Source of the DNA: a virus
Strand: one strand, 5' to 3'
Virus record (IMG/VR): IMGVR_UViG_3300007708_000003
Span: 1-64,000 of that record
DNA: 64,000 nucleotides
The stretch's first letter is position 1. Every line of letters begins with the position of its first letter. This document shows, one piece after another, positions 14,858-38,100 of this stretch. The notes beneath the pieces were generated by a model, which saw nothing but the letters and a program-made list of their open reading frames with translations, was not told the origin of the DNA and ran no database searches. The position numbers were made by a program, and so were the translations under genes.

Positions 14858-15148
14858 TTATGTGTTACTTGTTATTGCTAAAAATTCTTGTTCAGTAAGT
14901 TTCTTTTTTACTTCTTCACGTATAAAATTTTCTAAGTCTAATTCTCCTGCTGCTTTTATTTCTTTTTCATAAAATTCAATACCTTCACCTGTAAGTTTTA
15001 CGGATTCTAAATAATCTCTATAATCTCTAGCGTCTTGGTGTTCAATAAAAGAAACCTCTGTATCATCCATGTAAACTCTAAAATTTACATTTTGATTATT
15101 AACTGTAGTTTGTACAGTTATGTATTTAATTACTGTATATGTTTTCAT
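14858..15148 (-). CDS. Small hypothetical protein
   Basis: This 96-residue protein starts MKTYTVIKYITVQTTVNNQN. A strand-rich first half is followed by acidic helices (HQDARDYRDYLESVKL, FIREEVKKKLTEQEFLA). I chose ATG 15148 because the frame reaches further upstream only to a TTG inside the kelch-like gene. It lies directly after the fibre gene and 17 bases before the basic 44-residue gene. It may be a fibre assembly factor by position, but nothing in the sequence shows this. Confidence 0.6.
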   Translation of the reverse strand: MKTYTVIKYITVQTTVNNQNVNFRVYMDDTEVSFIEHQDARDYRDYLESVKLTGEGIEFYEKEIKAAGELDLENFIREEVKKKLTEQEFLAITSNT

Positions 15149-15152
15149 AATT

Positions 15153-16598
15153 TTAATATAATAATATTCTAAATAATTCTGTATTTGCAGGTCTTTGACT
15201 ATATAGCCAAACAAGCTTATCTACTCCTGATTCTTGGTATTTTTTAATAGCCATTCTATGTCCTTGTAGTCCTGAACCATCGGGGAATATATTAGTTGTT
15301 AAAGGAGCAGTGAATCCTGTTACAACATCTAACGAAATATACCTATTAGTAACACCTAATTTATAAATAATTAAATTATTATATACTACTGCACAACTTC
15401 CAGACTGTGTATTAGTTGATGGTTCTGCAGTGCCTGATAAATTTAAAGTTGCCCACGACCCTGCTCCTGCTGTACCTCCTGCTATATCAAATCTTTCCAT
15501 TTGATTAAAAATAGCAGTACCTTTAAAACTCTAAATATATCTGCCATCTTGAATATTACTCTCATTAGCCCAATTTGCATCTCCTGTTTTGCCAATCCAA
15601 TTTGCAGAAATTCCTTGCGATGGTGCTGCTCCAGCTCTAGCCACAGTAGGCGACATTGTAGTCCACGTATTAGCAGAAATAGAATATCTATACATTGTAA
15701 TTGCATTATTACCTAATAGATAAAGAAAATCGTCATTGCCTGCAATTTCATATTGACTTGTAGCATCAGGATTAGTAGTCCAAGCACTTGAAGTTGTAAT
15801 TACTGTTGCAGTATTACTAGCAATAGTTCTTACTTGTCCTATTCCTGTTCCTGCTATAATTCTAATTTGGTAATTTGTCCATTGATTGACTGTCCAAGTC
15901 TTTGCACTATTTGTAATAGTACTTGCTCCTCCTGCTGTTGCTGTACCTGATGCAAATACATCATTACTAGGTGTAGCAATTAATCTACACTCTTGAGATG
16001 TAGTAGGCAATCCTGTAAAAGCTAAAGTAGTATACACCCCTGTTAAAGGGTCATAACTTCTAAACACTCCTGATGAAGCAGCTCCATTCCCCATAATATA
16101 AAACAATCCTGTATCAATTCTAAATGTGTCTGTATTAACAACAGCACTTGGTAAAGCTGCAAAAGTTATAGTAGAGGTTCCTCCTAAATTAATTACAACA
16201 TCTGTAATAACTCTATCTATTCCTATATTTGCCGCTGTTCCTGTTGCAAATCTTATAATTCTTCCTTTACATATTCCTGTTATAGCTGCAGTAGTTGTAA
16301 CAGTGGTTGTGCTTCCTCCTGTTGCTGTAATTGAGTTACTCCATCTAGCTAGTTCACCACAAGCTCCAACCCCAAAAGCAGAAAGAGCAGGAGAAGGTAA
16401 AGTTATACTAGAGTCTTGACTATATGTTGACAATATAGCTGTTGTTGTGCCTACTATTGTTAAAAAATAATCATATACACCCCTTTGGTCAGAGATAATG
16501 TTAGAACCTGACAAATTTGTAGTAACAGGTAATGGATTCATTTGTTGCCATTCTTTTTTATGGACACCTGCTATGTTGTTATTAATTGCTGTTGGCAT
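15153..16598 (-). CDS. Kelch-like fibre/appendage protein with an internal in-frame TAG
   Basis: The frame has 481 codon positions before TAA 15153-15155 and is interrupted once, by TAG at 15531-15533 (codon 356). Upstream of the TAG there are kelch-like units such as DDFLYLLGNNAITMYRYSI...NTWTTMSP. Downstream the same pattern resumes in the same frame: FNQMERFDIAGG...SWATLNL, then CAVVYNNLIIYKL. The TAG falls where kelch blades carry 'YxxxG' (DGRYI-TAG-SFKG), so a tyrosine codon may have mutated. The N-terminus (GVHKKEWQQMNPLP) looks like an attachment domain. Thr, Ser and Ala are very frequent, as in fibre proteins. It stands at the end of a fibre cluster. The product is a 355-residue protein unless the amber codon is suppressed. 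Confidence 0.72.
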
Positions 16599-16600
16599 AA

Positions 16601-17107
16601 TTATGTTATTTTTATATTGTTAATATTAGATTGAATTGCTAATTGATTTCCTATATTTGGAATAAGAGATGTAGCCGCTACACTTCCTATTTGTACTATA
16701 TTAGTAAGTGAATTTATAGAACTTACTGAATTTATTTGTGAATTAGTGTCTAAAATAACTCTTAACATACCACCTGTTGTACTTCTAAGTGAAGTTAATA
16801 TATTATTTATAGATTCTGTATTGGCTGCCGTATCTTGTAATGCATAATCTAAAGAAGGGTCATCATATATAAACTGTAATTCATTAGTACTTGCTTGAGC
16901 TGTTGTATCAAACTGAAGAGTAAGAATATCTGTAGTTGAATTATATGATGTGTATCCTGCTGTTGTTGATGCAGTAGAGTATATTATCAATCCATTGGTT
17001 TGATTTATAATAGCGTAAAGTCTATTTATATCAAAATATGGAATATTTGTTTTAATCTGCTTTAGAGCAGGAGTAAAAATGTAACTTGGTGTTATTATTG
17101 TTTTCAT
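16601..17107 (-). CDS. Fibre-linker or adaptor protein
   Basis: This 168-residue protein starts MKTIITPSYIFTPALKQIKT. The first 80 residues form a strand-rich domain (RLYAIINQTNGLIIYSTAS, DILTLQFDTTAQ). A long polar helix-like stretch rich in Asn, Ser and Ile follows (NTESINNILTSL, NSVSSINSLTNIVQIG), suggesting a trimeric coiled or triple-helical shaft. It lies three bases from the kelch-like gene and three bases from the large fibre gene, so the three probably form one appendage. The N-terminal domain pattern resembles base attachment domains common in fibres of Bacteroidota phages. Confidence 0.55.
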   Translation of the reverse strand: MKTIITPSYIFTPALKQIKTNIPYFDINRLYAIINQTNGLIIYSTASTTAGYTSYNSTTDILTLQFDTTAQASTNELQFIYDDPSLDYALQDTAANTESINNILTSLRSTTGGMLRVILDTNSQINSVSSINSLTNIVQIGSVAATSLIPNIGNQLAIQSNINNIKIT

Positions 17108-17110
17108 ATT

Positions 17111-20100
17111 TTATCCAAATATTAATGCGATTGCTATTGATTCTGCTTGTGTAACTCCGCCTCCTGTAGGCGCTGCAAATGTACCATCTCCACGTAAAAA
17201 TGTAGTTGTGTTATTTGGAGGTGTTGGTACTAAACCACCAACAGTTGCAGTCATTGTATTTGCAAAAAACCTGCTACTAATGTTATTAGCTATTGTATTT
17301 GGAGAAGCAAATGTTCCACTATTTGCAAACACCAAATCATCTAAGATTCTATTATTACCTACTGCTACAAAACTATTAATTAATGTTATTTCAGTAAGTA
17401 GTATAACCCTACTGTTAATTATATTAAAATCAGAGTTAAGGCAATTAATTCCTCTAAGACCTGTCGAGGTTCCTGAGTTATAATAATTACCCCACTGCAT
17501 ATTTCTTATCTTAACATTTCCAATTAAAAGAATAGCAGAATCGCAAGTAAAATTACAATAATGGTTCCTTCTTGAATAAATCATTTCAAATTCTATACTG
17601 TAAGAAACATTATCCATTACTACATTGTAAAACAATGGGTTACTTTCTATATTAAATCCACCGCCTAATTCATAGTTATTTATATTAGCACCAGGCAGTA
17701 CTATACTAGCACCATTTGTCCATATTAATCCTCCCCAAATTACATAGTCAAACCCATTATATTGTAATGTTGTGTTATAAATACTATATGAGTCATATTT
17801 TGGGTCATAAAATTCTGCAATAGCATTTTCTTCATCTATAGTACTAGTTGAAGTAGCTTTAACATAAACATAAACAGTGGATAAATTATTATAAAACTTT
17901 GTTTCTTCTACTTTATATACTTGACCTATAACAAGAGAATCTGTATTAGCTAAAGCAAGTAAGGCTGCTGAACTTATAGGTGTTAATCCTGAGAATTCAT
18001 CTTTAGGAGCTCCACCTAATCCATTTAGTGTATATGTTGGAACATTTAATATTCCTGTTCCTGAATTATATGTTGAGGCTCCACTTGCCCCTGTAGTTGT
18101 TAAAGCAGTCATTCCTGTTCCTGCCATTATACCTGATTGCTGAGTAACTGTAAGTACTACAGAAGCAGTAGATGGAGGAGGACTTCCTGCAGGTTCAAAT
18201 GAAATAAATACATTTGTATCTGCTGTACTCCATACAAATTCATAATAATCTCCTGCTATAGGATCAAGTAGAAAGTTCCAAGAAGGAAGTGTATGCCCAT
18301 CAAAGGCTCCGTGTTTTTTAGGAACTAATACAACACCTGCAGATCCAGGCACATCAACACCATTCTTTCTAAGCCATATTGTTACATCGTGTTCTGCTGC
18401 TGTTGGATTTCTAAATTGTGCTGACCATTGTATATTATATATTCCTGTATTTGCTATTGTAACTCTTGAACCACTAACTACTGTAACTCCATTAGTTAAA
18501 TCAGTTACGCCTAATAGCATTGGATAACCTGTATTAATTACAGCAGCAAATTGGTCTGTTACATCAGAAAATGCTCCATAATATCCTGCAGGTGTAGTAG
18601 CTGTATTAGTCCCCCACTTTAATCCTGTTGGTGTTGTACTATCTGCTATAAGAATTTGTGTATTTAATCCTACAGGTAATCTTGTATCAACTGTAGTATT
18701 TCTAACAAATATATCTCCTTTGGTTGTAAGAGGAGAAGTATATGTAGCTGTGTTTGTTAATGTTCCTGCACTTAAACTTAACCCTGTACCAATAGTTATT
18801 TCTTCCATAACACCTGTACCTGCTGTACTTCTACCAATAAGTTTATTAGTAGCCATAGATGTAGAAATAACAGGAGTTGTACCTCCTGAAGATGTAATAG
18901 GACTTGTTGCTGTTACAGATGTAATTCCACCAACTGAATTCATATTAGTTGAAGTCCAAGCTGTACCATTAAAAAATCTGTAAACTAAAGAACCTGTTGT
19001 ATATCCAACTCCACCTATTGTAGTTGTACCACCTACAACATAAACTATATATCCTTGATTTGTTTCAGGAACTGCATCTGTTACTGTTATTGTACCATTA
19101 GTACTATAAATGCCTGAATTTGCTGCTGTAAATGATGTTGTTTTAGCAACACTTCTATTTATAAATTTTTTAGGAACTAATTCATTTTGTCCTAAATCTT
19201 CATAAACAAGGTTTGGACTTAAATTATATTCTGCCTTACCATTTGTTTTATTAAATGTTAATGATTGGTTTAGCGTTAAATATTCAACATTATTTTTTAT
19301 AAAAACTAATTTATCAATATTTACTCCACTAAGAGCTAGACTTAATAATGCATTGTTAACATATAGACTAGTAGAATATTGATTAACATAAGTTTCAATT
19401 ATATTACCAACTAAATCTATAAGAACAGTACCATTAGTAGGAACTCCTTTAAATGAAGTAAAGTATCCAGTACATAAATACTTAGTATCATTATCTACTA
19501 ATTGAATAGAAGAAACTAAAATACCACCAGGTGGTACAATACCAGCAAATCCTGTCCCTGCTACAAATGATGTATCTATAGTACCATCTTGATTAATTTT
19601 TATAATTCCATTAGTAGGTGTTCCATTATAAGAAGTATGAGTACCAACTGCAATTATCTTATTATCAGGAGTTTTTAATAAATAATTAGCTTGATAACCT
19701 GACGGACTAAATCCTGTTGATACAAATGAAAAATCTCTATCGCCATTTGGTAATAGTTTAATGATATTTGGTATTGCAAGTCCTTTGTATGTAGTAGCGT
19801 AAGAAGTTATAAATAAAGTGTCATCTGAATTTACAGCAATAGATATAGTAGCGTTATTGAAACCTGAACCTATTATAAAAGATGAGTCTATATCTCCATT
19901 TAATAATAATTTTGCTAATCTATTTTGACTTACTCCTTTATAAGTGTTGTAAATACCTGTTACGTAAACAGCAGTTTTTGCAACATTAAAATCTAAATCT
20001 AATGTATAATCATTAAATCCAGTTCCTACATTAAAAGAAGTATCTCTACTACCATCAGTATTTAGTTTAAGTATTCTATTTGCAGAAACTGAATTATATG

Positions 20101-21115: not shown

Positions 21116-24100
21116 TTATTGATTACGTTTAAGTATGTCTATTCTATAATTAGGATCAAACATATCTCTAAAATTTTTATATCCAGTAAGATCTACAAAA
21201 TCTTTTGCTAATTTCATATCTCCTTTTTCATATGCTCCTGATTTTCTATTGTAGTATGCTTCTTTCCATATAGCAGTGTAAAGTTCACTGTCATATTCTG
21301 GATCTGGTTCTTCACCACCTTGCATACTTAATGCCATTATAGTACTTAATGCATGAGTTGTTAATTTCTTAGCAGCTGTAAGTTCTCGCGTATATGTGGT
21401 CAAACTTGTAAAGTTTTTAATATATTCAGAAGATCCTCCTCCTAATGGGAACATTGCAGTAGTTTCACCTTTTACACCCCATAAAAGTCTTATAGCATTA
21501 CCTTCAAGAAAACCTAATTCTTCATCATCATCATCTTTACGTCTTACATATTGTGTAGCAGCCATTGAAGCAATTGTTAATATTGCCATTGCTACAGCAT
21601 CTCTTCTTGCATGAGATATACTTCTAGTATATACTTTTCCTATTGTTGCAGTATTAATAGCTTTTGTGCCTTGTTTACCAAAATTAAAAAAATACTTAGT
21701 AGTTTCTACAAATCCATATGCTTTATATACTTTTGCTAAAGCTCTCCAGTAACCTATAGTTACCTCAGCTCCCTCCCAGTTAGGTCTAAGATATCCAAAT
21801 CTATTTAAAAATTGTGGTATAATATACTTTCTATAATAGAATACTAACTTACCAATTATATTTTCTTCAAATTTAGTTTTATCCCATCCTGCATAGTTAC
21901 CTTGTGCTCTACGCATTTCTGAGTAAATTATATTTCTAAGGAACTTTTCATCTTCTTTTGTAAACTCTACATCTTTTCTTATTTGTAATAATTTATTAGC
22001 ATCTTGATAATATACTTCATGTGCACTTACTGTCATATCAGTACCATCTGCATTTTTTTTGTATACTTTATTACCAGCTGTATCAGTAGTAAATACTTTG
22101 TATTTGTAACTATCTAATACAGAATACATTACTACAATACCTATAGCTCCATCACCTTTTTCTTGCACCATATATCCAAGCTCTACAGGATTCATAAATT
22201 TACCTATAGCTCTTCTTTCTCTACTTCCAGATGCCTCATTTAAATACTTATCAAATTCTTTTTGTAAAGGGTTGAATTTTCTATATAACATAGTAGACTC
22301 ACTTACATCATTTACTTTACCCCAATCAGCAAAATAGTTTGGCATAAATGTTCCAAAAAATTGTTTTTGTGCCCACATCCAGTTTTGTTTAGAATAATGT
22401 GAACTGTCATCTATACCACCTGCAGAAAGAAAAGATTGTACATTACCAGATATGTAGTTTTTAGTCTGGTTCACAACATCAAATCCCATTCTTACAAAAC
22501 TTGTATATGCCATTACTTGTTTTACAATTTTTGTAAGCTGTCTATTTTTTTCTTCAGGATTATCAGCTTGTCCATTTACAAACTTTCTTTTTTCATATTT
22601 TAAAATCTCAATAACCTTATTGATTTCTTTAAATCTTTTATTCCAATCTACTGTAGATTTTTTGTTTGTGACAGGGTCTATATATGTAAAATCTTTTGCT
22701 TGTATTTTATTTTGAATATTTTCAGATAACATCTCAAGATATTCTATTGTCATATTAGCAACTGGTGCTGCTTCTTGCATTGCTGCTTTATAATGTGCCT
22801 CACCTGCATAACGCATTAATGCACCTATACTATCAGTAGTCTGCAATGTTAATGGTAACTGGTTAGCTCCAGAAAGTCTTATTACATCACCTAAAGCTCC
22901 ATAACTATTATCAATATAATCTTGTTGACTACCTGTAGTTCTTAATTCTTTATCTATATACGTATCCATTTGTTTACGTATACTATCTGTAATACCTAAT
23001 GTAGAAAAGTTTTCTATTGTAGATGCTGCCATTCCTGGTACTAAGTATCCTGTTCTTCTACCATCAACTTTGTTCTGTAGTTTAAAATACATATTCATAA
23101 GTTGATTGTAAAAATTAAATACTTCAGGATTATTCATCAACTGCATGTATTTAGGATTTACTGCAGGAAAAGATTGACCTGTTAATGGATCTGTTATCAT
23201 CATGTTTTCCATACCTGGTATAACAGTGTATACACCATTTACTTCTTGTATGTTTTTAGGCATAGGAATACCATCTGCAGATTTTAAAAAGTTTTTATTA
23301 TATGCACCTTCAATAAACTCAAGTTCACCTGTTGCAACTAAGTCATTTAATTCTTCTTCTGTAAAGTTATCTATTTGTTCATCTGTAAGTTGCTCACCTG
23401 TTCTGGTATCATAATACTCATCTGTTCTTAAAGTTTTAATTCTATATCTACCACCTGGTTTTTCTTCCATGTATACAGATTTCATTTCATCAGATACAGT
23501 TCTTTGATAGTTAAAACCTTTAGGTATCTTATTATCCTTAAAGTAGTTTTCATCTTCTCTAATAGATTTATAAGTTATATTGTGAAAACTTTCATACCAG
23601 TTTTTGTACTCAGCTTCACCTATATAAAATTGATTTTCATATTTTAAATAGTCAGCTTCTAACTCAGCTAATCTTTCAGGTGTTGCAGAATCTCTTTCTA
23701 ACTGATATGCAACTGATGCATTAATATAGTTAGAATACTTATTTTCTAAGTTTCTAGTTTTACTTTTAAACTGCAAGTCATAATCTTTTACTAATGACAT
23801 TGTAGACATTTTATCTAATGCCATATTTAACTCAGATAACATTTCAGCATCTTCAGGTTGCATTTTTACTCTAGGTTTACCTTCTGAATTTGTAATAGCA
23901 TTTATCTCAACTTCTATTTGATCAAGTCTTAGTATAGTATTCTCATCTAAGTTTTTAATCTTAAGCTCACCTAATACTTTATGTGGAGCTAATAAGTTTT
24001 TTCTTTCCTCAAACAAATCTTGCAATACAGGATTTTCACCATAGTATATACTTAGTATGGCGTTTCTTTCATCATATATGGTACTAAGATCTTTGTACCA

Positions 24101-27100
24101 TTGATCAGTAGGTTTTACAACAGTATTTCTGTCTAACCATTTCTGCCATTTTTCTGGATCATCAATCTCATATTTAATCTTTGCATTTTGATATGCTAAC
24201 TCATATTTATTTGTGTCTTCTTCAAACTTATATAATTGATTGAACATGTCTATATACTTTTCATAATCAGGGTTTTGCAATTTTGCTTCCTGTTTAAGCT
24301 GTCTTAATTCATACTCAATCTGTTCTAGTCTATCTAAATCTTCATCACTTAAAAACTCTTCTGATGATACATCAAGACTTGCTTTTATAATTTCAATCTC
24401 ATGATATTTCTTTTGAAGTTCATTTCTGATTTCAAATGGTAACATTTTTTGAAACTCATAAAACTTTGTTTTATATGGTAAACTTGTATTATCTACAAGC
24501 CACTGTATATTAGCTTCTGTAAATACATTTCTTTCATTTATCTTATCATAGTATTCTTTTTCAAGATCTGTAAACTCTTGTGTTCCAGGTTCTTTACTTG
24601 AAAATGCAGCTTTTAAACTTTTAATTTCTTTTTGGATTTTAGCATACTGGTTTGAGAAATCTTTATAGATTCTATCATATTCATTAGAAGTAGGTTTTAC
24701 AAAATATCTTGCAGTCTTTTCTTCTTCCTGCATTGTTTCATAGTTAAAAACTTTTGTAGTTCTTTCTTCATGCATCATTTCATTAAGCTGTTGTAAAGTA
24801 TAGTTTTTTAACAACTCACCTTTTACTTTATCAAATTGCATAATAGCAAAGTCTTCCTGTACATTTTCTACAGCAATACTTTTTACATTTTTTAAGAACA
24901 TGGTGAATGCAGCAATCATTTTATCAGAGTTACCTGCAGATGCAATAAAGTTATCTAGCATCATACCATTCATAACACCATCTGGATTCATAATATCCTG
25001 TGCTCCTATGTATATACCTGATGCAGGATCTGTAACAGCATTGATATACTTTTTTAAAGAGTCTGCGTCATAGTTAAAATTTTGTCTTCCTCTAAGAGTT
25101 AGTATTTTAAATTCTAAGTCTTCAATTTGTGTTATTAAATCTTTTTGAGGCTGTGTAAGATTTTGTTGGAAACCATCTTTGTATGTTTTACTTAACATAC
25201 TTAATGTTGCATGTTTTAGTTTACTTAAAAACCCTGCAGATTTACCATCTTTTAAATCTTGTATCTTTCTTTCAAGCATCATTATTTCTATATCAAGAGG
25301 TTCCTTAGAAAGTTCTTTTACTCTTGACATTGTTTTTTCTCCAAGTGAAGCTAGTATTTTTACATTAGATTCCAAACTTACTTCAGCAAACATAGAGTTT
25401 ATAATCTCTATATTTGTTTTTAAAGCATTCATCTTTTTTACAATCTCACTGTTTTGATCCAGTTTGTTTTCAGGATTTTGCATTGCATCTCTAACAACTT
25501 GATCTAAAAGATTTACAATTTCAGACATTGATCTTGTTCTCTTAAATACTTGAGATACAACTTCAGAATGTTTTAAAAACTCACGTGTGTTAGATATAGA
25601 TTTTCTAAATTTTAATATAGCATCTGTTGCTTCTGTTAATGCATTACTGATTTCATTACTAGTAATTTCATGCACTACAGCAAAGTTGTGCATTAAGCGA
25701 TTATCAGATACAGAATGTGGCTTATTGTAGTTTTCATAAAATCCTTCTAGTGTTTTCTTTTGTTCTTCATATACACGTATAAGAGCAGGATTCTTTTTCT
25801 TATCTCTTGCATCCTGCAGTCTAGTTTGTACATCACGTATCTGTGAGTCAAACATGTTTTTAATTGTTTGAATTACTCTTTCATCTTGTTCTACAGTAGG
25901 TAAGAAGTCAAGTATTTTTACATCTTTCTTTTCTTCTTCTTCTTGTATTTCTTGACCAGTAGGTATTTCAAACTCAACAGCATTTCTAAGCTTAGTAACC
26001 TTATTACGTAGTGTACCTAGTTTGTCATCATCCATAGAAAGAAAACCTGCTACATAACCATAGTAGTCTTCAGTATCAAACATATGTACAGCTCTTCCTA
26101 ACATTTTTTTATTATCTTTATCCATCTGATAGAATAAAGCAATAATAGAAGAGTCTCCTCCTTTTTCTAATCCAGATTGTCTAAGTATGTTTTCATACAA
26201 CATCAGCTGTAAAGACCATGTGTCATATACAGTTCTTTTATAATCACTAGCTTTTAGTATATTAATAGATGCTTTTTTGGCAACAATGTCTTCAGCTTTA
26301 GTAAGAGTAGGAAAGTTTTTATTTGTCATACTCATTAATACACGTGTTACATTATCTAATTCTAACACGCCATCAATAAGAGGATCTTTGTCACCTAAAA
26401 GATTGCTTACTTTTTTAGTTTTAAAGTCATACACTTTGAACTTACCATTTGTATCTATTGCAAGTAAGTCAATTCTACCTATGATAAAACTATCTTCAGA
26501 TCTACCTTTACCAATTACAGTAAGCTCTGGTATAATAATATGTTCTGTACCTTTTAATGCAGCTATTTTTTCAACTACATCTCTTACCATATTAAACAAT
26601 TCTTTATCAGATAAGTTTTCTAACTGAAAATAATTTTCTTTATAGAATGCAGCTAAGTCATCTTCAAACAATTTATAATCTCCAACTACATCTGTAATTC
26701 TTTTATTATCTTCATTAGCTATCTTGATCACTTTATCTGCAAAGTTATGTACAAATATTCCAAATCTTTTTGTTTTTTCAAATTGAGATGTATCACCAAC
26801 AAAGTTAGAACCAATAAGATTTGTAACAGAGTTTTTATTTACTGCTACACCTTCTTTTATACTTTTATTTAAAGCTCTTTGAAAATCTTTATTAGACTCT
26901 ATAAGTCCTTTAATTGCAGCTGTTTGCGCTTTTGTATTTACTCTAGATTTTAAAACTTCTAACATTATCTGCTCTTCTTGCATTTTTTTTAAAGTAAATG
27001 CATCATTAGATTTGCGAATTTTATCATCTTCATTTACTAAGAGTGTAGCATCTAAAAGAGATTGTGCTGTAGCAGTATCAGGTATAACATCGTTATTTAA

Positions 27101-27187
27101 AGCAACAGCAGCTCTAGCAGCTGCAGTACTTTTTAAATCTGATACTAATGCATCAAACTCAGGACCAATAGGACATGATAAACTCAT
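21116..27187 (-). CDS. Giant virion-type protein (2023 residues) with a PD-(D/E)XK nuclease domain
   Basis: The N-terminal 350 residues contain a RecB/Cas4-type nuclease site: D240 in IIGRIDLLAID, D254-F-K256 in KVYDFKTKK, and the supporting QLMLYENIL helix. The middle (about 350-1250) is almost entirely charged helices, as in long coiled coils. The C-terminal part has a single strongly hydrophobic segment (AVAMAILTIASMAATQYV, about residue 1860) followed by an acidic KDDDDEE stretch. It starts one base before the nucleotidyltransferase stop and belongs to the same block as the RNA polymerase. In known crAss-like phages such giant proteins are packaged and ejected with DNA. A nuclease domain could process DNA ends or host DNA; this is inference. 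Confidence 0.75.
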   Translation of the reverse strand: MSLSCPIGPEFDALVSDLKSTAAARAAVALNNDVIPDTATAQSLLDATLLVNEDDKIRKSNDAFTLKKMQEEQIMLEVLKSRVNTKAQTAAIKGLIESNKDFQRALNKSIKEGVAVNKNSVTNLIGSNFVGDTSQFEKTKRFGIFVHNFADKVIKIANEDNKRITDVVGDYKLFEDDLAAFYKENYFQLENLSDKELFNMVRDVVEKIAALKGTEHIIIPELTVIGKGRSEDSFIIGRIDLLAIDTNGKFKVYDFKTKKVSNLLGDKDPLIDGVLELDNVTRVLMSMTNKNFPTLTKAEDIVAKKASINILKASDYKRTVYDTWSLQLMLYENILRQSGLEKGGDSSIIALFYQMDKDNKKMLGRAVHMFDTEDYYGYVAGFLSMDDDKLGTLRNKVTKLRNAVEFEIPTGQEIQEEEEKKDVKILDFLPTVEQDERVIQTIKNMFDSQIRDVQTRLQDARDKKKNPALIRVYEEQKKTLEGFYENYNKPHSVSDNRLMHNFAVVHEITSNEISNALTEATDAILKFRKSISNTREFLKHSEVVSQVFKRTRSMSEIVNLLDQVVRDAMQNPENKLDQNSEIVKKMNALKTNIEIINSMFAEVSLESNVKILASLGEKTMSRVKELSKEPLDIEIMMLERKIQDLKDGKSAGFLSKLKHATLSMLSKTYKDGFQQNLTQPQKDLITQIEDLEFKILTLRGRQNFNYDADSLKKYINAVTDPASGIYIGAQDIMNPDGVMNGMMLDNFIASAGNSDKMIAAFTMFLKNVKSIAVENVQEDFAIMQFDKVKGELLKNYTLQQLNEMMHEERTTKVFNYETMQEEEKTARYFVKPTSNEYDRIYKDFSNQYAKIQKEIKSLKAAFSSKEPGTQEFTDLEKEYYDKINERNVFTEANIQWLVDNTSLPYKTKFYEFQKMLPFEIRNELQKKYHEIEIIKASLDVSSEEFLSDEDLDRLEQIEYELRQLKQEAKLQNPDYEKYIDMFNQLYKFEEDTNKYELAYQNAKIKYEIDDPEKWQKWLDRNTVVKPTDQWYKDLSTIYDERNAILSIYYGENPVLQDLFEERKNLLAPHKVLGELKIKNLDENTILRLDQIEVEINAITNSEGKPRVKMQPEDAEMLSELNMALDKMSTMSLVKDYDLQFKSKTRNLENKYSNYINASVAYQLERDSATPERLAELEADYLKYENQFYIGEAEYKNWYESFHNITYKSIREDENYFKDNKIPKGFNYQRTVSDEMKSVYMEEKPGGRYRIKTLRTDEYYDTRTGEQLTDEQIDNFTEEELNDLVATGELEFIEGAYNKNFLKSADGIPMPKNIQEVNGVYTVIPGMENMMITDPLTGQSFPAVNPKYMQLMNNPEVFNFYNQLMNMYFKLQNKVDGRRTGYLVPGMAASTIENFSTLGITDSIRKQMDTYIDKELRTTGSQQDYIDNSYGALGDVIRLSGANQLPLTLQTTDSIGALMRYAGEAHYKAAMQEAAPVANMTIEYLEMLSENIQNKIQAKDFTYIDPVTNKKSTVDWNKRFKEINKVIEILKYEKRKFVNGQADNPEEKNRQLTKIVKQVMAYTSFVRMGFDVVNQTKNYISGNVQSFLSAGGIDDSSHYSKQNWMWAQKQFFGTFMPNYFADWGKVNDVSESTMLYRKFNPLQKEFDKYLNEASGSRERRAIGKFMNPVELGYMVQEKGDGAIGIVVMYSVLDSYKYKVFTTDTAGNKVYKKNADGTDMTVSAHEVYYQDANKLLQIRKDVEFTKEDEKFLRNIIYSEMRRAQGNYAGWDKTKFEENIIGKLVFYYRKYIIPQFLNRFGYLRPNWEGAEVTIGYWRALAKVYKAYGFVETTKYFFNFGKQGTKAINTATIGKVYTRSISHARRDAVAMAILTIASMAATQYVRRKDDDDEELGFLEGNAIRLLWGVKGETTAMFPLGGGSSEYIKNFTSLTTYTRELTAAKKLTTHALSTIMALSMQGGEEPDPEYDSELYTAIWKEAYYNRKSGAYEKGDMKLAKDFVDLTGYKNFRDMFDPNYRIDILKRNQ

Positions 27188-27188
27188 A

Positions 27189-29123
27189 TTATAAACATTT
27201 TATTTTTTCTAAAATCTCTTGATTTGTTAGGTTTGAACCTTGCAATATACTACTTATTTCTTTAGCTTGTATACCAAATTGTTCTTTACTAAGTCTAAAT
27301 GAACTTTGTCCATATAAGTAATTTACAACTTCTGGAGTTAAATTCAAACTATTAGTATCTAATTCTAAGCTGTCTACTTGTTTAGCTTCCATAATTTCTG
27401 CACCTGGTTCAGCAAAACTAAAATATCTATAACCTTTATTTGTAAACTTAAACACATCTTTAATAAATGGATCAAAGTATATAAAATCTACAAGGTCTTT
27501 TAACCTTCCCATTTTTAACTTAGCTTCATATATACCTTTCCAAGTTTTCCAGTAGTTATCAAACTCTTCTATACTGTCTTCTGATTCTTTTGTTCTTACA
27601 AAAAAGTCTACTACTGTTCCTGTTTTTTCAATATGTTTTCCTTTTTTAAATTTACCATCTATAACACCTGAAATTGTAATTGATTCACCTTTTTTATGAT
27701 CTCTACCTACAAAAGCATTTGTTATTTTAAAAGTAGGATATAAAGCTTTAAAGTTTTTATACCATGATTGTTGTTGTATAAGTGGTAAAAGTTCTTTTCT
27801 AACAAGCTCAGGCGTTAAAGCAGTGATGTTATCATTAACAATCTTTAATATCTCTTGATAGGTAGCTTCTGTTTCATGTAGTGACATTGGTATTACAATA
27901 TCAAAATCATGAAATGCCTCATCTTCAGGTCTATATGTTTTACCATATTTTCTTGTTGCTGCAGAACCAGATAATTTAGGACCAATAGTTTTATCTTTGT
28001 TAAGATATATGTTATTTAATATATTATTCATAATAGACATGGCAACAGGATCTGAGTTGACTGATTCTTCATAATCTTTTAGAACTAACTCTTGACCTTT
28101 AGGTGTAATAATCTTATCACCTACCATTTTAAATCCTCTTGTAAACTTAACATAATCTTCTTTATATATATCATCAACCATATCTAATACAAGGTCATTT
28201 AATTTGTCTATATCATATTTCTCAAATCTTTCATTATTAAAAACTTTTTCATTAAGCCAGTTTAATATTTGATTCATCAATCTGATTAATACATTTCTTT
28301 CATATATATTTCTAAATCCTCTTTTTTCAAAGTATTCTTTTGTAACATCTTCAGACAATCTTTTTGTATTAGGTGTAACACCTAAATCATTAAATGTGAT
28401 TAATGTTTGATGTATAAACTCTACAATAGCCATCTTTTTAGCAAAAGGATTTATACCTCTTTCTAATTCATTATTAGCTTTACCCATCTCTTCTGGAGTA
28501 AGGTCCATATAATCTTGTATACTATCATCTAAGTTTTCATATTTATACTGATCATGTATAGCTTGAAATCCTGACCACTGTTCTATATTAAACCACAAGT
28601 CTTTACTTAACTTGTTTTTTCTTCCTAGCATTTCATACATGATATATGCAGCTTGTTTAGGAAGTTCTATTGTTTCTTTATTACTTGCAATAGCTACAAA
28701 CTTTTGCATAACATCTACAGCTGATACAAGACTTTGAGAATTTTTAATTTTGTTTTGAGTTTGTACTTTTAAAAATTGTTCTGCATTAAACATTATATCA
28801 AAGTTCAAAGCTTCTAAAAACTTTTTAGATGCTTCAACAGGTGTATTTTGAAATTCAGTTTGTGGTATAATTGTTACTGGCTCCTGTTTTTCAATTGACT
28901 GTTCATTATTATAATATATTTCTACAAGACTTTGAGGCACATATATATTTCTATCTAACTTACCAGTTGAAGTTTTTGAAAATGTAACAACAGTATCATT
29001 AAACTTTTTGTTTACATCTGCAGCAACTTTAGTTGCATTGACAAGTGACATGTTAAATGCATCACTTGTCATCATCTCAATCTTCTTGGTAATATTCTGT
29101 TTAATTTTTATTTTACAAGGCAT
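27189..29123 (-). CDS. Nucleotidyltransferase-fold protein in the RNA polymerase cassette
   Basis: This 644-residue protein has the pattern of a polymerase-beta-like nucleotidyltransferase. G386-S387 lies in LSGSAATRKYG, D406-F-D408 in HDFDIVIP, and a third acid, D506, in GTVVDFFVR. This GS...DxD...D arrangement binds metal and nucleotide. The first 350 residues are helical with no recognised motif (FLEALNFDIMFNAEQFL, NEKVFNNERFEKY). Members of this fold adenylylate or otherwise nucleotidylate proteins, tRNA or small molecules. Lying between the giant RNA polymerase and the nuclease-bearing protein, it may be ejected into the host to modify a target, much as other phages inject modifying enzymes. 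The substrate cannot be told from the sequence. Confidence 0.68.
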   Translation of the reverse strand: MPCKIKIKQNITKKIEMMTSDAFNMSLVNATKVAADVNKKFNDTVVTFSKTSTGKLDRNIYVPQSLVEIYYNNEQSIEKQEPVTIIPQTEFQNTPVEASKKFLEALNFDIMFNAEQFLKVQTQNKIKNSQSLVSAVDVMQKFVAIASNKETIELPKQAAYIMYEMLGRKNKLSKDLWFNIEQWSGFQAIHDQYKYENLDDSIQDYMDLTPEEMGKANNELERGINPFAKKMAIVEFIHQTLITFNDLGVTPNTKRLSEDVTKEYFEKRGFRNIYERNVLIRLMNQILNWLNEKVFNNERFEKYDIDKLNDLVLDMVDDIYKEDYVKFTRGFKMVGDKIITPKGQELVLKDYEESVNSDPVAMSIMNNILNNIYLNKDKTIGPKLSGSAATRKYGKTYRPEDEAFHDFDIVIPMSLHETEATYQEILKIVNDNITALTPELVRKELLPLIQQQSWYKNFKALYPTFKITNAFVGRDHKKGESITISGVIDGKFKKGKHIEKTGTVVDFFVRTKESEDSIEEFDNYWKTWKGIYEAKLKMGRLKDLVDFIYFDPFIKDVFKFTNKGYRYFSFAEPGAEIMEAKQVDSLELDTNSLNLTPEVVNYLYGQSSFRLSKEQFGIQAKEISSILQGSNLTNQEILEKIKCL

Positions 29124-29133
29124 GACTTTTTAT

Positions 29134-32100
29134 TTAACAGGTTTCAGATGTTCTATCTATTGAAGGTAAACCTTCAGGATTATTCATTGCAAATTTATCA
29201 CTTGCTAGTTTAAGTATTGCTATTCTATTACCATTGTTTGAATCCCACTGCATTAACTTACCAGTCTTATCAGATAGTATTTGTTGTTTTTCATTTACTA
29301 CATACTTGGTATTGTCATATGTAACTACAACAGCACGCTTTTGTAATACAGCAACATTAGCAAATATCTTATATCTATCTACACCATTTTCTTTGAAGAC
29401 TTCTTTACCATCTTTATTGATAATCTTAGATCCTCTTACAGCATATATTTGTTCTTCTTTACCTTTAGGCGTATATCTAACAAGTATTTCTTTAGGTGAT
29501 TGTGATACTATTTCAGTTAAAGGTTTAGTAACATCTTCAGCAAAAACTTCTTCTTCATATAATACATCAACATATGTCTTAATAGCATTTGTTGTTCTTC
29601 TGCCTGTAGCAATTAAGTTTCTGTAAACTTGTGTTTCTTCTTGACTTAATGTACCAGGGTTAAGAGTGTCTGAGTATGATACATTCTTTTCTAACTTAGT
29701 ATAATTAGCTTTGTAACCTTGAGTATTAATACCTGTTTCAATATTATCCATAAAGTTTTCAGCAAGTGAACTGTATGGTTTTGAAAACTCTTGCGATTCT
29801 TCAACACTTTCTAGTACAAATGTTTGATTATCTATTTTAATAAATGCAGGAAACTCATATACTAATGTTTGATAGTTATACTTTACACCAAACTTTTGTG
29901 CAATTAGCTTATTAATATCATCACTAATACCATCAGTAGATTTTCTAAAATCAAAATTAAGAATATTACTTCTTGTAGATGCTTTAAAAGTTGGTCTACC
30001 ATAATTGTTAGATAATCCAAAAGTAACACCTGAAACAACGCCATCTAAATGTAATTTGATTTCACGTCTAAGAGTATCTTCATAAGCTTCTTTTGGTGTT
30101 GCAGCTTTTAACTTCATCTTCTCTTCATTTATGAATTGTGATTCATAATTGTTTTCAAAAAAATATAATCCTGGAGCTTTTAGATTAACTATGTCTTCAG
30201 AACCAAGTATAGCAATTGTGTTAAATATATTATTCAATACTTCATATGTTCCTTCTTTGTTTTCAGCTGCAATAAAACTTTGTATTACTTGTCCAAAATC
30301 TTTTACTTCATCACCTTTAAGTTTATCTGTAAAGATATTCATGAACTTTGAAACATTTTTAATGTACACAGGATCAAGGAATTGCAAATAAGAATTAGCT
30401 TTATATAACAAACCTGTTCTTGCAAGTTCATGATAAAAAAGTTTACTCATAAATAAAGGTTCTGCAGATGATAAATATTTAGCATCATTTGCAATAGTAT
30501 TTGCAAGATCACCTGCTACTTTAGATTTAGTAGTAAGTCCTATATATGATTCAGTTATTCTTCTATTATCACTTGTTAAAGCAACATTTTTAGTTTTATA
30601 TTCACGTAAGAAAGACAAGAATTTATTGTTAGGATCTTTTTCTTTTAGCTCTGCTAATTCTTCACCTAGACCATGTGTAAACCAATATCTTGCACTAAAT
30701 GCATTTCTTAAGTTATCATCATCCATATCAAGCATTAGTTGATGCATGTCATCTGCTGCTTTTCTACTACCAGGATACTCTGTTCTAAACTTATATAAAG
30801 AAAGCATAGATGTAAGTGTATTAGCAATAATAGACTTATCTTTTAAGCTTGATTTAAATAAGTTAGTAATACTTCTAAAGTAAGGACTTCTTTCTAAGAA
30901 TATTCTACTTGCTTGTTCTTGAAGATCACTTACAATTTCATATTGTACTGACCAAAGTTTATTTTTACTAAAGATTGTGTCTACTATGTCATCTTCTAAG
31001 AATAGTTGTTTAGTTTTTAATTCTACTATGTTTCTATACATGAACTCAAAAGAATTAAAATCAGGTTTAAATGACTTAATAGTATTAATCAAAGATGCTA
31101 TCTGAGATAACTGGAATGATTGCAACCCTTGTTCTTTTATCATCTGTAACAAAATAATCTTTTGTTGCACATCTGATAAAGGTGTGATTGTTTTACCTGT
31201 TATTTCAGTAGTTACTTTTTTGTTTTTAGTAACAGTTTTTTTAATATACTGCAGAGATGAAACTTTTATACCTAGGTCTTCAAGTGACAATGTGTTATTT
31301 AACCATTTGTTTTTATCTAACTCAGATGGGTTAAACTCTAGTACAATATTTTCTTTATTGATTTTAAAATTAGTAACACCACTGTTTCTAGGTATAACAC
31401 CTTGTGCTTTTAATACATCTACAGCTGTAGGATCTGAAGCAATAAGTTTTTTAATTTCAGCATTCAGTGCTCTGTATATACTTAATGACTGAATAGCTTC
31501 ACCTCTTGTAATAGCTTTAGTTGAACTTAATACTTCTTGTGTAGCATTAATAAACTCAGGTATTCTGATCATGTTAAAAATTAAGTTGTCATCTAAACCT
31601 AATGCTGTAGCAGATAGTATAAAGTTAGAATTTGCATCATTTACACCAAGAAGAGCTGGTATTGGATCATTTCCTGCATCAGCAAACATACCAATACTGT
31701 CTCCTACTTTTTGTATAACTCTGTTACCTTTTTTATCTAAAATTCCATATGCACTATGTTCAACAAGTTCATAATCTACAGGTTCTATACTACCTTCTTT
31801 ATATATAGGAATATTATACTTAAATACAACAGCATCTTCTTTAATGTTTCTTTTACCAGGTTTAGTATAAAGATTTATAAAAGAAACTGTTTTATTCATT
31901 ACAGCAGCTTTACCTAAATTTGAACCATCAGATTGACTCATTGATTTAGATGCAATTGTAGCTGCTATAGTATGATGATCATATGGTACGTTATTAGCTG
32001 TATTATTATAATCAACACCTTGATTTGTAAGTACAGCTTTGAAACTATCTGCAGATGCTTTTTGATTTGAGTATAAGTTCTTGAATACTATCTCATTAGA

Positions 32101-35100
32101 CAGTATATCCATTGCACTTGTTAAAAGGTCATTCTGATATACAGGTCTTACTGAATATCTATACTCTGGTTTTTTGTTAAATGTGTTAAGAGATGTAGGT
32201 AAATTATATTTACTAAATACTTTTAGAGTAGCTTCTGTTTTTAACAGTGTTCTATAAAATTCAAAAGCACGTTTGCTCTTATCATATAGTTCAGTTTTTG
32301 CAGTTTTAACAGCATCTATTTCAGCTTGCTTTTCTTTAATCTCAGTAAATATAGAATGCAACTGTCTTCTAGCAACATTATTATTTTTGTTTTTGTTTAG
32401 TTTTTCTTGTAGTGCATCTATACCAGATCTTAACTCATGTTTTGCATCAAACAATGGACCATATGAATCATTATAACTTTGTATAACAGCTTTGAAATCC
32501 ATCTCAGACATTTCTAAATAGTTTTCAAAATCATCTTCTGTAAAGCCATAAAGCTTCATTAAGTTTTTAGCTGCAGTGCTCATTTTATAATCATCAGACT
32601 CTGACAACTTATCAAACTCTGATCTTATAAGTGTTCTGAGATCTTTATCTTTTAACTTGTACTGCATAAATTCTAAAAATCTACCTTGCTCTTCATTAGC
32701 ATATTGACTGTAATCTCCATATAATACAGTTTCACCTTTGAAATCTTCATAAGTATTGTACATCTGAGTGTACAAAGTATCAATATCAAAATCAGAACCT
32801 GCAAGATAGTGTGCTAATTGTGGTAATATAATAGTGTTACCATGTGCAGAGTTTACAAAATCTACAACTTTAACAACAATCATTGAACGCTTGTCCTCAG
32901 TAGGAACACGTTGACCAAAAAACTTGTTAAGTTTTTCAAGATAATATTCTTTTTCTTCTGTACTTGCAAAATATGGCATTGCTACAATAGCTTCTATAGT
33001 GTATACTTTAACACCTTCGCTGTTAATTTCTACACTTACACCAAGAGGTCTTACATGATTGTTTTCATATAGATCAGGATCAGCTTCTATTACTTCTTCT
33101 CTGATTACATTGTTGTTATCATCTACTGTAACATTGTGTCCCCATGAACTTGCATGTATAAACTTGGTCCCTGTAGATTTTTCATCAGTGGCTTTACTAT
33201 ACAATGAAAAGAAGTAGTACTCTAACATCTTTCTTATTGTACCAATGTTTTGATTTATAATAGGTTCACCTTTAGCATCTGTTTTAAATAAATCTTTAAC
33301 ACTGTCTGGTGCATTTTGTGCATCAAGGTTTTCTCTTATAATATCATATATCTGACCTACAACAAGATTATTATTCTTATCTCTTAAAAATGTTTTAGCT
33401 AAATTAAATCCAGCTTCTGCACTGTCATGCATTGCTGTTTCATATCTGTTTAATGCACTTAACAAAGCATCATACTGTAAAGACTCTTCTTTAGTAAAAT
33501 CTCTACCTATAATTTCTCTCATATGCACAATATCTGCAGGAAGTAAAAGTTTTCTTTGTATAGAAATTTTAGATTCATTTTTAACTTTAGATGTTTCTAC
33601 CTGGTTATACTTCCATTCATTGCTTACCAGCTGAGAAGCTATCTCTAAGTTTACATACTCAGAGTCTTGATTCATTTCATTATAGAAATCAATAGGAAAC
33701 ATAGTAGTAGTCTTAGATGCTGTTGGATCAACAACCTGATCAACACCATCTAACTCCATACTGTTTAATAATACATGTAATTCTTTCTTACTCTTTTTTG
33801 CTTTAAAATATTTGTGAGCTTCTTTTATAAGCCTCTGATTTAATAATGCAATATCAGATATACCAGACAGCTCATTGCTTAAACGCATGTTCTGCATTAG
33901 TATTCTGTTGCTGTATATTTCAGAATATATCTGATGCAATTCATCATATGTATTTGCAATGTATTCATCTTTTTGCTCATCAGTTAAACCAGAAGGAACA
34001 ATTAATGTACTCACATCATTTCTGTCAATATAGTCTTCTGATAATTTAAAATATACTGTTCTTGAACCTGTAGCTGTCTTCTTAGGGTTCATGATAATTT
34101 TATCTTTTTTCAGTGTATTAAACTCTCTTTCTGTTATATCTCTATAATGTTTTGCAATAAGTATATCTGTTGCTTCAGGTGAAAGTTTTCCAATAGCTTC
34201 AAAACCATCCATCTGATGCATAATTGATGAATAACTTTGTCCATCAAACACATCAAACATATATGGTTTTTTACCAAAGTTTTCTGCTAATATAGCTTTT
34301 GTTGCATTATCAGTAAATGGATCATTGTTAATTTGATCTATTGAATAATACTGACCAGCTTCTACATATTCTGGATGTAAAAATACTTGAAGTTTATTAA
34401 GTGTAGCAACTTTATGAAATCCATTTTTAAAGTTATTACCTGCAATAATAAATCTTTTGTTTCTTTTAACTAACTGTACAGCACCTTTAACATTCAATGC
34501 TTCATCAGCATCAAACATTTGATTAAACATCAAGGAGTTGTGCATGTGATTAAATACTTTGTCAAAAAGAAACCCTTCAAGATTTATAGATGTAAATGCT
34601 GAACTTGGTTTATAAGTTTTAGTAGCTTCATCATAAGTCATAATTGCTTCTTTACCAGTACCTTTACCATATAAAGAAGACAAGTCTTCTAATCTAAAAC
34701 CTAATTGTATTTGCTGATCATCTGTGATAAAATCACTTGTTATCTTTTTAGTAATGTTTACTCTACCACGATCTTGTTTAAATATACGCTCATTTGTTTC
34801 TTTATTAACACCAACAATTTCTGCAGTATCAACATATTTTATTATACCTTGTTTAGCATAATTTTCTACAGCATAGTTAAACTGATCATATGCATAATCA
34901 TCCAATGTATCTAAAAACTTTTTAGTCTTGTCATCATTATATAACTCATCAAAGTTTACCTGATTAAAAGGTACACCTTGTTTAGCACTATTAATAAGTG
35001 ATTGCTTAATACTTTTATTGTTTTGAAAATACTTAGGTAACTTACTAAAGTTATATGCTCTTAAACTGTTATCTTTTTGATCTTCTACATCCGCAGTTTT

Positions 35101-38100
35101 ATCTTCATTAAAAATAGCATTATACTCACCTCTAAGCATATTATACTTTCTACTATCATATGCTTCTTTTAATACTTTTCTTCTGGACCACTCTTTTCTT
35201 ATTCTTTCATACTCTTGTCCAATAACATTTTTAAATGTATCAGTAATCTTTAATCTACCATTTACTTTGATAATACCTTTTGAGTCTGCAAATTGCTCAT
35301 ATAATCCTGATACTAAGAAGTTAGTTGGAGATGTTTCATTCTGACCATACTGACGCATATAAGTATATATAGTGTCACCACTCTCTGTTACTATCTCATC
35401 CCTTTTTAAGAAAGAGTATATGTCAAGTAAGTGCATGTCTCTTTCTTGCAATTTATTATATGATGTTCCACTGATAGGTTTACCATCTACAAATTGTTGA
35501 GTACCACCATATAAGCTTATGTCAAAGTTTTTGATAAATGTATTTAACTTATCATAGTTTCTTTTAGCTAATTCTCTTGCAGCAGTTTGTTCTGCAGTTT
35601 CACCTTTTTTCTTTTTAAAAGCTGTTTCAGGATTAGGTATCATCAACTGAGATAACAATACATTGTCACCATAAAAAGATTCTAAAAAGTTGTTAAACTC
35701 AAAATCATCTTTTACAAAATCTACAAATCCTTCTTCTCTTAATGTTTTAACCATATAGATAAGAGGAGTATATTTTACATATCTGTATATAAGTTTACCC
35801 TCAGCATTTCTTACAACGCTTGGTAATTCTGTTGGATCATATTTTACAATATACTCAGAAGCTTTTCTAAGAATAGAATTGAATGCACCATACTCTTTTG
35901 ATGCATCATCAAATTTCTTATTTAAAACAGCAGGAGCAGGTTTTGCTTTAAGTATATCATAGACATTGTTAAAGAAACTTTTAGTCAAATATTTATCTGA
36001 CTTTATAAAGTTCTCATTTATTTCTAAATGATTTTTTACAGTTTTATTGTATATTGAAACATTTCCACCATTTTCTTTTGTTTCAATGCCTATAAGAGAT
36101 AATCTAACTAATGACTTAGGAACATTTAGTCCTACATCTTTCATTGCAGTATGCAATCTTTCAGTAAGTTCTTTTAATATTTTATCATTATATTTTTTAC
36201 CTGTATCTAATATTAATTTTTGAGTTTTGATTTCTGCTAATATATACACTAACTTTTGTATTTTATCTTGATAATCACTAGATGTATACTCATTATTATA
36301 TTTATACAAGAAGCTATCTACAATATCTTTTTTCTTTTTGTTAATGTCTTCATATAAGATTTTATCTTTTAAAGAAATCTTACCAGCTGCAATATAACTA
36401 TCACCCTGTTCATCTACTTTGTTTTCAAAAGACAAGTTAAATAACGCGTAGTTCATTGCTGTAACATGCAATACTTCAACAAACATATTATATAACTGTT
36501 TGTTTTTTGTTGCCATGTTATTACTATCCAGACCAGATGCTTTTTTAAGATTGTTGTATATGGTCATGATGTCATTACCAGCTTTTACATTACCATCATT
36601 AATCATAATCTCAGCTGCATTAAGCAACTGATCAATAATTTTATCAGGTTTAACATCACTAGTAATTTTTAACAATATTGGAAACAATGTAGCACCATCA
36701 ATAACACGTGGAAGTTTTACACCAATATACTTTTCATGTGGAGCATAGTACATGTTGATAGCTAAGAACTTCTTAATCTGATTTGGTAAAGACTCTAATG
36801 TATTCTTTTGTACAAAATTATCAAAGTCTTCAGTACCATCTTCACCTAGTTCTTCATCTGCAGTATCTTCAACATCTTTAACAACCTCTTGTTCTTGATT
36901 GGCAATGTTTTGCATTGTTTCAGCATCAACGCTTGTATCATCAGCTTCCTCTAATTCAGAAAGCAAGTTGTTCAATGTTACGTATTGTTTTTTAACAGTC
37001 TTACGTAACAAATCATTGGATACTTGACCATTAGTATTATCTAAAACATCTGTTGTTAAACTGTCAACATAGTCATTTGCTTCAGACATGAAGTTATAAT
37101 TTTCATCTCCTGTAAGGTTTATATCAAATACTTCTTTGTTTTGAAGTTTAGCTCCTAGTATAAATCTGTATTGTTTGTATAAATCATTTAACTCCTCAGT
37201 AAGTTCATCTTTACCTTCTTGAGTATTTTCTTGTGCAGTAACAATATTTATATCTAGCACATTGTCTAATAAATGTTTTGTAGCAAGATCAAATTTCTCA
37301 TCAAAAGATAACTTAGTATTGTTATTGTTTAATACTTCATACAACACCATCCCAGTCAATTGATTTGCATGGAATGAGTCAAGTGTGCTATCTTTATACT
37401 CTACTTGATTTGTAATACTATTATTGTATATAACAGGTAGTCCTGGTATTGCTAGATATTTAATATTACCTTCATCTGCAATCTCAGCAACTTGTCTGTT
37501 TGCATACTTACCACGTTGTACATTTCTAAATGTAGAATCTATTACATCAGAGTTTCTGCTAAACATTCTTAATAAGTTGCTTAACATCTTAAAGAATCTT
37601 TCCAATAATGTTTTTGGAGCATTCTCTTTAATCATATAGTTTTGGAAAGCATCAGCTAATATTTCTTCAGCTTGAAGTTCTCTTAATCTTTCTAATGACT
37701 CTGTGTAGTTTCTATCTTCAGCAAATTTATTTAATGCATCTTCAGTAAACATTTTTGCATACTTAGAATTGTTATACACAGATTCTAATAATGCTTGTCT
37801 TTCTCTTGCATTCATCAAGTATTTAAACACTCCGTGGAATGCTTCATGATATGCAGTACCTTTTGCTTTTAAAGTATCATTTAAGTATATAAACTTATCT
37901 TTTATAAAACCAAGTACAGTAGGATTGATTTCTGTTAATGCATTAATATCTTCTATATCTAAAAGATTTAATCCAAACATTGAGTATGTTCTTTGTAACC
38001 ATGCAATCTCACTTGCCCATTCTTGTTCTGACGCAGTATCAAAACCTTCACCTATATCTATAGAAAAATAGTTATGTAAACCACCTGATTTTTTAATAGG

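Follow-up and report, generated by a model that had tools for sequence, protein, structure and literature searches.

A Putative Nucleotidyltransferase Flanked by the Virion RNA Polymerase and a Nuclease-Bearing Protein, and a Possible Cysteine-Coupled Cargo Train in crAss-Like Phages

The DNA analysed here (the window) comprises positions 1 to 64,000 of the IMG/VR virus record IMGVR_UViG_3300007708_000003, which is 98,360 bases long. The gene under study, P0001, was located by an open reading frame check at 27189-29123 on the minus strand (644 aa), and its start is unambiguous because the ATG lies only two codons past a stop. An earlier reading made without database searches (the sequence-only reading) had described a 644-residue minus-strand protein flanked by an RNA polymerase (RNAP) protein and a nuclease-bearing protein, with G386-S387, D406, D408, and D506 as its proposed active site; the reading frame, its setting, and each of these residue positions were recovered in the translation. 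The features of the block are as follows.

21116-27187, minus strand: P0003, 2,023 aa, the last putatively coupled protein, with a PD-(D/E)XK domain (Pfam match, cysteine count)
26411-26788, minus strand: PD-(D/E)XK nuclease match in P0003 (Pfam PF12705, PDDEXK_1, E=2.2e-6)
27173-27175, minus strand: Cys5, the sole cysteine of P0003 (cysteine count)
27189-29123, minus strand: P0001, with a domain of nucleotidyltransferase type at residues ~336-585, third of the four putatively coupled cargo proteins (open reading frame; 13-row alignment)
27195-27197, minus strand: Cys643 of P0001 (penultimate residue), candidate coupler toward the nuclease protein (cysteine count; conserved in locus L001)
27486-27521, minus strand: K535...R540-x-K542-D543-x-x-D546 helix motif, like the AbiEii-type K...RDxxD (invariant residues; AbiEii alignment)
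27606-27608, minus strand: D506, the third acid (invariant in the 13-row alignment)
27900-27908, minus strand: D406-F407-D408 (DxD), with the invariant H405 just before it (both acids invariant in the 13-row alignment)
27963-27968, minus strand: G386-S387, motif I (invariant in the 13-row alignment)
28875-29123, minus strand: residues 1-83 of P0001, N-terminal module (phmmer against the last cargo protein of L104 and L030)
29115-29117, minus strand: Cys3 of P0001, candidate coupler toward the RNAP protein (one of just two cysteines in 644 aa)
29134-40683, minus strand: P0002, 3,849-aa virion RNA polymerase with a zincin motif, the second putatively coupled protein (DFDID, HEAFH; tblastn to phi14:2 g066)
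29137-29139, minus strand: Cys3849, final residue of P0002 (cysteine count)
32779-32793, minus strand: DFDID catalytic motif of the RNAP, P0002 (motif reading)
40675-40677, minus strand: Cys3 of P0002 (cysteine count)
40709-45802, minus strand: P0004, 1,697 aa, the first putatively coupled protein, occupying the place of crAss001 gp47 and phi14:2 g067 (position, cysteine pattern)
40712-40714, minus strand: Cys1697, final residue and sole cysteine of P0004 (cysteine count)

The hallmark of Crassvirales, a virion RNAP with a DFDxD motif and giant neighbours in a single block, is present in the window. P0002 carries the crAss-like RNAP motif GSDFDID (D2631) together with a zincin-type HEAFH (residue 946); in tblastn its RNAP core was 25% identical to phi14:2 g066, annotated "Catalytic RNA polymerase subunit", and identity to short stretches of other Crassvirales RNAPs rose to about 47%. 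The C-terminal part of P0003 is common to the last proteins of cr116 and Lbo-JY46. The aligned RNAP core of the window was at most 24% identical to those of the 65 other genomes in our RNAP tree, and therefore the genome is, judging by its sequence, a deep lineage within Crassvirales.

Direct searches yielded one copy of P0001 at 90% identity (L001). Across L001 1-600 the N-terminal part is unlike that of P0001, and the open reading frame runs off the contig start. A fusion of RNAP and P0001 in this nearest relative was considered; the contig begins inside the frame, and the searches found no RNAP match in the 88-kb record. Eighty RNAP-bearing loci were gathered from IMG/VR, and when 50 of their records were searched with a profile of the P0001 domain, four matched (E 1.5e-62 to 2.3e-6). 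An additional viral scan with the domain returned 15 loci, already known copies included. Single-sequence searches with P0001 found no match in Pfam, PHROGs, or PDB, and a scan of GTDB contigs with P0001 was equally negative, as was tblastn of P0001 and of its relatives' domains against 50,697 phage records. Identity with DUF7277 was proposed by a weak match on L109 and was discarded as unsupported.

The domain of P0001 was aligned with those of 12 further, mostly remote relatives (24-90% identity to P0001). G386, S387, D406, D408, and D506 were invariant in all 13 rows, and so were 17 more residues (R391, G394, R398, E402, H405, K443, F508, W528, I531, A534, K535, R540, K542, D543, D546, F550, and P552). 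Thus, the motifs on which the sequence-only reading depended, GS, DxD, and D506, persist in close homologues and throughout the alignment. Since the proposed catalytic residues are kept in rows as low as 24% identity, the motif is no coincidence, and P0001 likely has a catalytically intact site of nucleotidyltransferase type. The nucleotidyltransferase fold claimed for the protein stood up in part: the sign of the polymerase-beta superfamily, G[GS] followed by DxD, is present (G386 S387, D406 D408) and the motif residues including D506 are invariant, but the fold itself was not confirmed. AlphaFold2 predictions of P0001 and of its domain from an input of two sequences had a pLDDT of 34-37, a fold search with this low-confidence model gave zero matches at E<=0.001, and the family profile matched no curated nucleotidyltransferase family in Pfam, NCBIfam, or PDB. 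D506 sits in a hydrophobic VVDFF stretch, which the same low-confidence model places in a strand. We infer that P0001 is a polymerase-beta-like nucleotidyltransferase, fold included.

One of the nearest known likenesses is with AbiEii/AbiGii-type nucleotidyltransferases (PF08843), which share with the P0001 family the pattern G[GS]-x-A-L-R...R-x-x-E-D/H-D-x-D and the helix motif K...[RK]D-x-x-D. P0001 differs from them in having GS rather than GGT, a histidine ahead of DxD, and its third acid at D506, and a significant profile match between the two families is absent; nor did the PF08843 profile find a match in this genome. In hhalign the P0001 profile and AbiEii came into register at G[GS]...DxD with a score of 22.1 but a probability of only 1.3%, and the comparison set consisted of six AbiEii-type plasmid proteins fetched by a motif-like query, which possibly favours such an alignment. 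All of 200 column-shuffled controls against AbiEii scored below this value (maximum 18.9). Together these comparisons weakly suggest that P0001 is related to AbiEii-type enzymes.

The four proteins P0004, P0002, P0001, and P0003 (1,697, 3,849, 644, and 2,023 aa) contain six cysteines in 8,213 residues. We found that one cysteine lies on every end that faces a neighbour, and that none lies at the N-end of P0004 or the C-end of P0003. Six cysteines placed at random would fall into the 30 end positions with p of about 1e-15, a pattern noticed post hoc in the window and therefore retested on other genomes. Cysteine-rich proteins are encoded beside the cysteine-poor cargo block both in the window (57925-60141, 30 cysteines in 738 aa) and in L003 (4486-11482, 42 cysteines in 986 aa).

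Nearly all crAss-like phages examined share the pattern. In reference phages the same rule was found: the first protein has a cysteine at its C-end, inner ones have one at both ends, and the last has one at its N-end. The sole cysteine of phi14:2 g067 is Cys1797 (its last residue), g066 has Cys3 and Cys2179, and g065 has Cys3. In crAss001, gp47 has only Cys2339 at -3, gp50 has Cys5, Cys2404 at -9, and one internal, and gp49 has only Cys5. The rule is obeyed by Suoliviridae, Intestiviridae, Crevaviridae, Flavobacterium phage Fpv1, and Leptolyngbya phage Lbo-JY46, and the exceptions are crAss002 and cr116. The annotated RNAP start of crAss002 is without an N-end cysteine; a 170-base intergenic stretch precedes this gene (L019 12454-12660), so that the start may be misannotated or the exception true. 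cr116 encodes one additional protein of 833 aa whose C-end bears a cysteine (L006, cr116_1, 14940-17441); its RNAP block is rearranged across strands, and a train of such proteins may branch there or have alternative first members. Lbo-JY46 (L007) is a cyanophage outside the Crassvirales assignment, with which the terminal-cysteine pair and the C-terminal part of the last protein are held in common. In crAss001, DAC15, and cr106 the gp47-like partner is encoded on the opposite strand, the codon of its C-end cysteine being kilobases away from the RNAP start codon, and the facing ends still both bear cysteines.

For the IMG/VR loci, which were made non-redundant before counting and whose gene starts were first-ATG calls, both cysteines were present at 54 of the 57 complete junctions between the RNAP and its downstream neighbour. 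Junction exceptions were inspected individually: in L058 and L063 the RNAP gene is interrupted or another open reading frame comes next, L077 is apparently split, and in L029 the C-end cysteine lies 32 residues inside. The frames concerned in L058 (15240-16961) and L063 (12564-16049) begin MSKNIEVEG and MNKHIEAEG, have two cysteines 7 apart, and are possibly an inserted element. At junctions upstream of the RNAP both cysteines were found in 25 of 53, neither in 26, and one in 2. Nearly all of the upstream cases with neither were long fused RNAP proteins of 3,188 to 5,642 aa, and one, L094, was 1,653 aa. Thus, the upstream pair is present if the upstream protein is separate and absent if it is fused. 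Other adjacent giant pairs upstream had the cysteine pair in none of 24. Over all adjacent giant pairs, both cysteines were seen in 82, a single one in 1 + 5, and neither in 59 (Fisher p 6e-34, relatedness being ignored).

The comparison of split and fused proteins covered the 66 genomes that show the N-end of the RNAP: an N-end cysteine was present in 36 of 37 scored as split and in 1 of 29 scored as fused. Both discordant rows were scoring artefacts, L094 (near-twin of the fused L090) being cut by what looks like a frameshift and L017 having a gp47-like gene on the opposite strand. On the RNAP tree this label changes about 6-8 times; supported independent pairs gave three agreements and no disagreement (p 0.25), too few for the tree test to be significant by itself. 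Among the RNAP and flanking giant reading frames, 183 of 239 cysteines were no more than 8 residues from a terminus, at positions that vary from 2 to 7 or from -1 to -7, and both cysteine codons were used. The background in frames of 250-900 aa from the same loci, a rough set that includes some shorter chain members, was 10/73 for N-end and 16/120 for C-end cysteines. In L037 a 113-aa protein (19347-19688), encoded roughly 6 kb downstream from the RNAP gene, has cysteines near both ends and the next protein starts MSC; the 113-aa protein is perhaps a very small carriage.

In every locus with neighbours visible, the nucleotidyltransferase domain lay between the RNAP core and the block's final protein, in three architectures. 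It is a free protein with cysteines at both ends in the window, L064 (1,167 aa), L120 (689 aa), and L124 (574 aa); it lies in the N-terminal part of the last protein, with a cysteine at the N-end only, in L114, L116, L117, L119, and L121; and it makes up the C-terminus of the RNAP chain, with a cysteine at the C-end only, in L125 and L128. The domain therefore follows the cysteine rule, as free copies have both couplers and fused copies lose the one on the fused side. Supported tree branches force at least two changes of architecture, and the architectures serve as separate tests of the rule. The nucleotidyltransferase protein of L064 (14047-17550) appears, by eye, to have a second, degenerate domain of this type at its C-end. 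A phmmer search showed residues 1-83 of P0001 to share homology with the beginning of the last cargo protein of both L104 and L030 (domain E-values 2.8e-14 and 3.5e-12). For this reason P0001 is best seen as an enzyme domain that was probably joined to the N-end that the last protein had ancestrally, and that later split off from the remainder.

The blocks of phi14:2 (g067, g066, g065) and crAss001 (gp47, gp50, gp49) agree with that of the window in gene block, RNAP motif, and terminal-cysteine pattern, but they lack a nucleotidyltransferase carriage, whereas the window has this fourth protein between the RNAP and the last protein. The annotations of the phi14:2 block derive from virion MS/MS, and gp47, gp49, and gp50 were detected in crAss001 virions, whose LC-MS/MS was run both non-reduced and reduced (PMC10172136). 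Because the terminal-cysteine pattern of P0001 matches that of these virion proteins detected by mass spectrometry, and because its relatives form fusions with either the virion RNAP or the final cargo protein, there is strong indirect support for P0001 being packaged as virion cargo, a point that the sequence-only reading had kept conditional. Two other kinds of cargo invite comparison. The RNAP of the window resembles the N4 virion RNA polymerase (gp50), a giant ejected RNAP with almost no cysteine; N4 gp50, gp51, and gp52 have zero cysteines and hence no terminal couplers, unlike the proteins of the window. Polyvalent proteins of phages and conjugative elements, like the window cargo, are giant, multidomain, and thought to be packaged and injected (PMC5512222). 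They include pol-beta nucleotidyltransferases, which the survey gives for conjugative elements only, and metallopeptidases, and nucleotidyltransferases occur in conflict systems as well (PMC5512222).

Phages move several megadaltons of folded enzyme through a narrow tail channel, in order and in fixed proportion. Crassvirus cargo must pass a channel of less than 50 angstroms partly unfolded, and the cargo protein gp45 is thought to exit N-end first, in an ejection model called hypothetical by its authors (PMC10172136). We propose, with a probability of roughly 0.6, that P0001 is a nucleotidyltransferase cargo enzyme in a disulfide-joined ejected train, released in the cytoplasm and modifying a host macromolecule. 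P0001 would be carried between the virion RNAP and the nuclease-bearing protein in a head-to-tail train, in which disulfides between the C-end of one protein and the N-end of the next would form in the virion or during passage. The train would exit as a single thread in the order P0004, RNAP, P0001, P0003, with P0001 entering after the RNAP. As each N-end would trail the preceding C-end, order and equal numbers would follow, and the scarcity of other cysteines would prevent wrong pairing. The reducing cytoplasm would then break the disulfides and free the units, and P0001 would attach a nucleotide to a tRNA or protein of the host as infection begins. Such a train would be extendable, with new enzymes added as extra carriages. 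The general form of this proposal, in which crAss-like phages eject RNAP, nuclease, protease, and sometimes nucleotidyltransferase as one cysteine-hooked, redox-released thread, is in our judgement slightly more probable than not. The reading frame, the conserved active-site residues, the constant position in the RNAP block, and the cysteine pattern with its dependence on whether genes are split were observed; we infer that the cysteines form disulfides, in what order the proteins are ejected, how they are released, and what the enzyme acts on. A host tRNA or protein as the target is a first guess, made because AbiEii-type and other conflict-related nucleotidyltransferases serve as an analogy, which we take from general knowledge and a weak motif comparison.

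The main rival to a host target is an accessory role with the virion RNAP: the nucleotidyltransferase might tail, prime, or process phage transcripts, or modify the RNAP itself. The domain always adjoins the RNAP, to whose C-end it is fused in L125 and L128, and no member away from the block was seen among the matches of the viral scan. However, 46 of the 50 RNAP-bearing records were without a match, so the domain is not needed for transcription, and we regard this role as credible but unlikely. As for the coupling, the terminal cysteines might act, for instance, through a jointly bound metal ion or non-covalent docking instead of a disulfide. The bacterial cytosol, the site of both synthesis and delivery, is reducing, which fits such coupling. 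Against it, a typical metal site needs more than a single cysteine from each end, and a cysteine that wanders between 2 and 7 or between -1 and -7 suits a flexible disulfide over a docked site. The crAss001 virion, moreover, contains disulfides, namely in tail and portal-vertex proteins (PMC10172136), and coupling of this kind is thus rather improbable. Bayfield et al. mention no disulfide for gp47, gp49, or gp50, and in the literature consulted, which was largely open-access, we found no mention of terminal cysteines or disulfides of crassvirus cargo; priority is thus not claimed.

A third alternative concerns the enzyme, whose nucleotidyltransferase-like domain might be catalytically dead and serve as structural cargo only. 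The apparent degenerate copy in L064 indicates that decay happens in the P0001 family, but none of the acids, of GS, or of the basic residues that accompany them varies across the 13 divergent rows of P0001 and its relatives, which makes a dead domain very unlikely. Least probable of all is that the cysteines, although they appear where a protein is split, do nothing in the protein and are left over from, or signal, gene splitting or junction translation, because no signal at a DNA junction explains the matching ends of crAss001, DAC15, and cr106, encoded on opposite strands and kilobases apart, and because other adjacent upstream pairs lack the cysteines (0/24), while both codons and varied positions are used in proteins otherwise almost cysteine-free. 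Inteins as their source were rejected, as the cysteines lie elsewhere than at residue 1 and the match extends to partners encoded on opposite strands.

Phages already available, and possibly mass-spectrometry data already recorded, allow the disulfide-joined train to be put to the test. If it is true, cysteine coupling would give ordered delivery, equal copy number, and automatic release in very abundant gut phages, and cargo proteins would be recognisable from sequence alone. The nucleotidyltransferase would then enter the host cell as one of the earliest phage enzymes.
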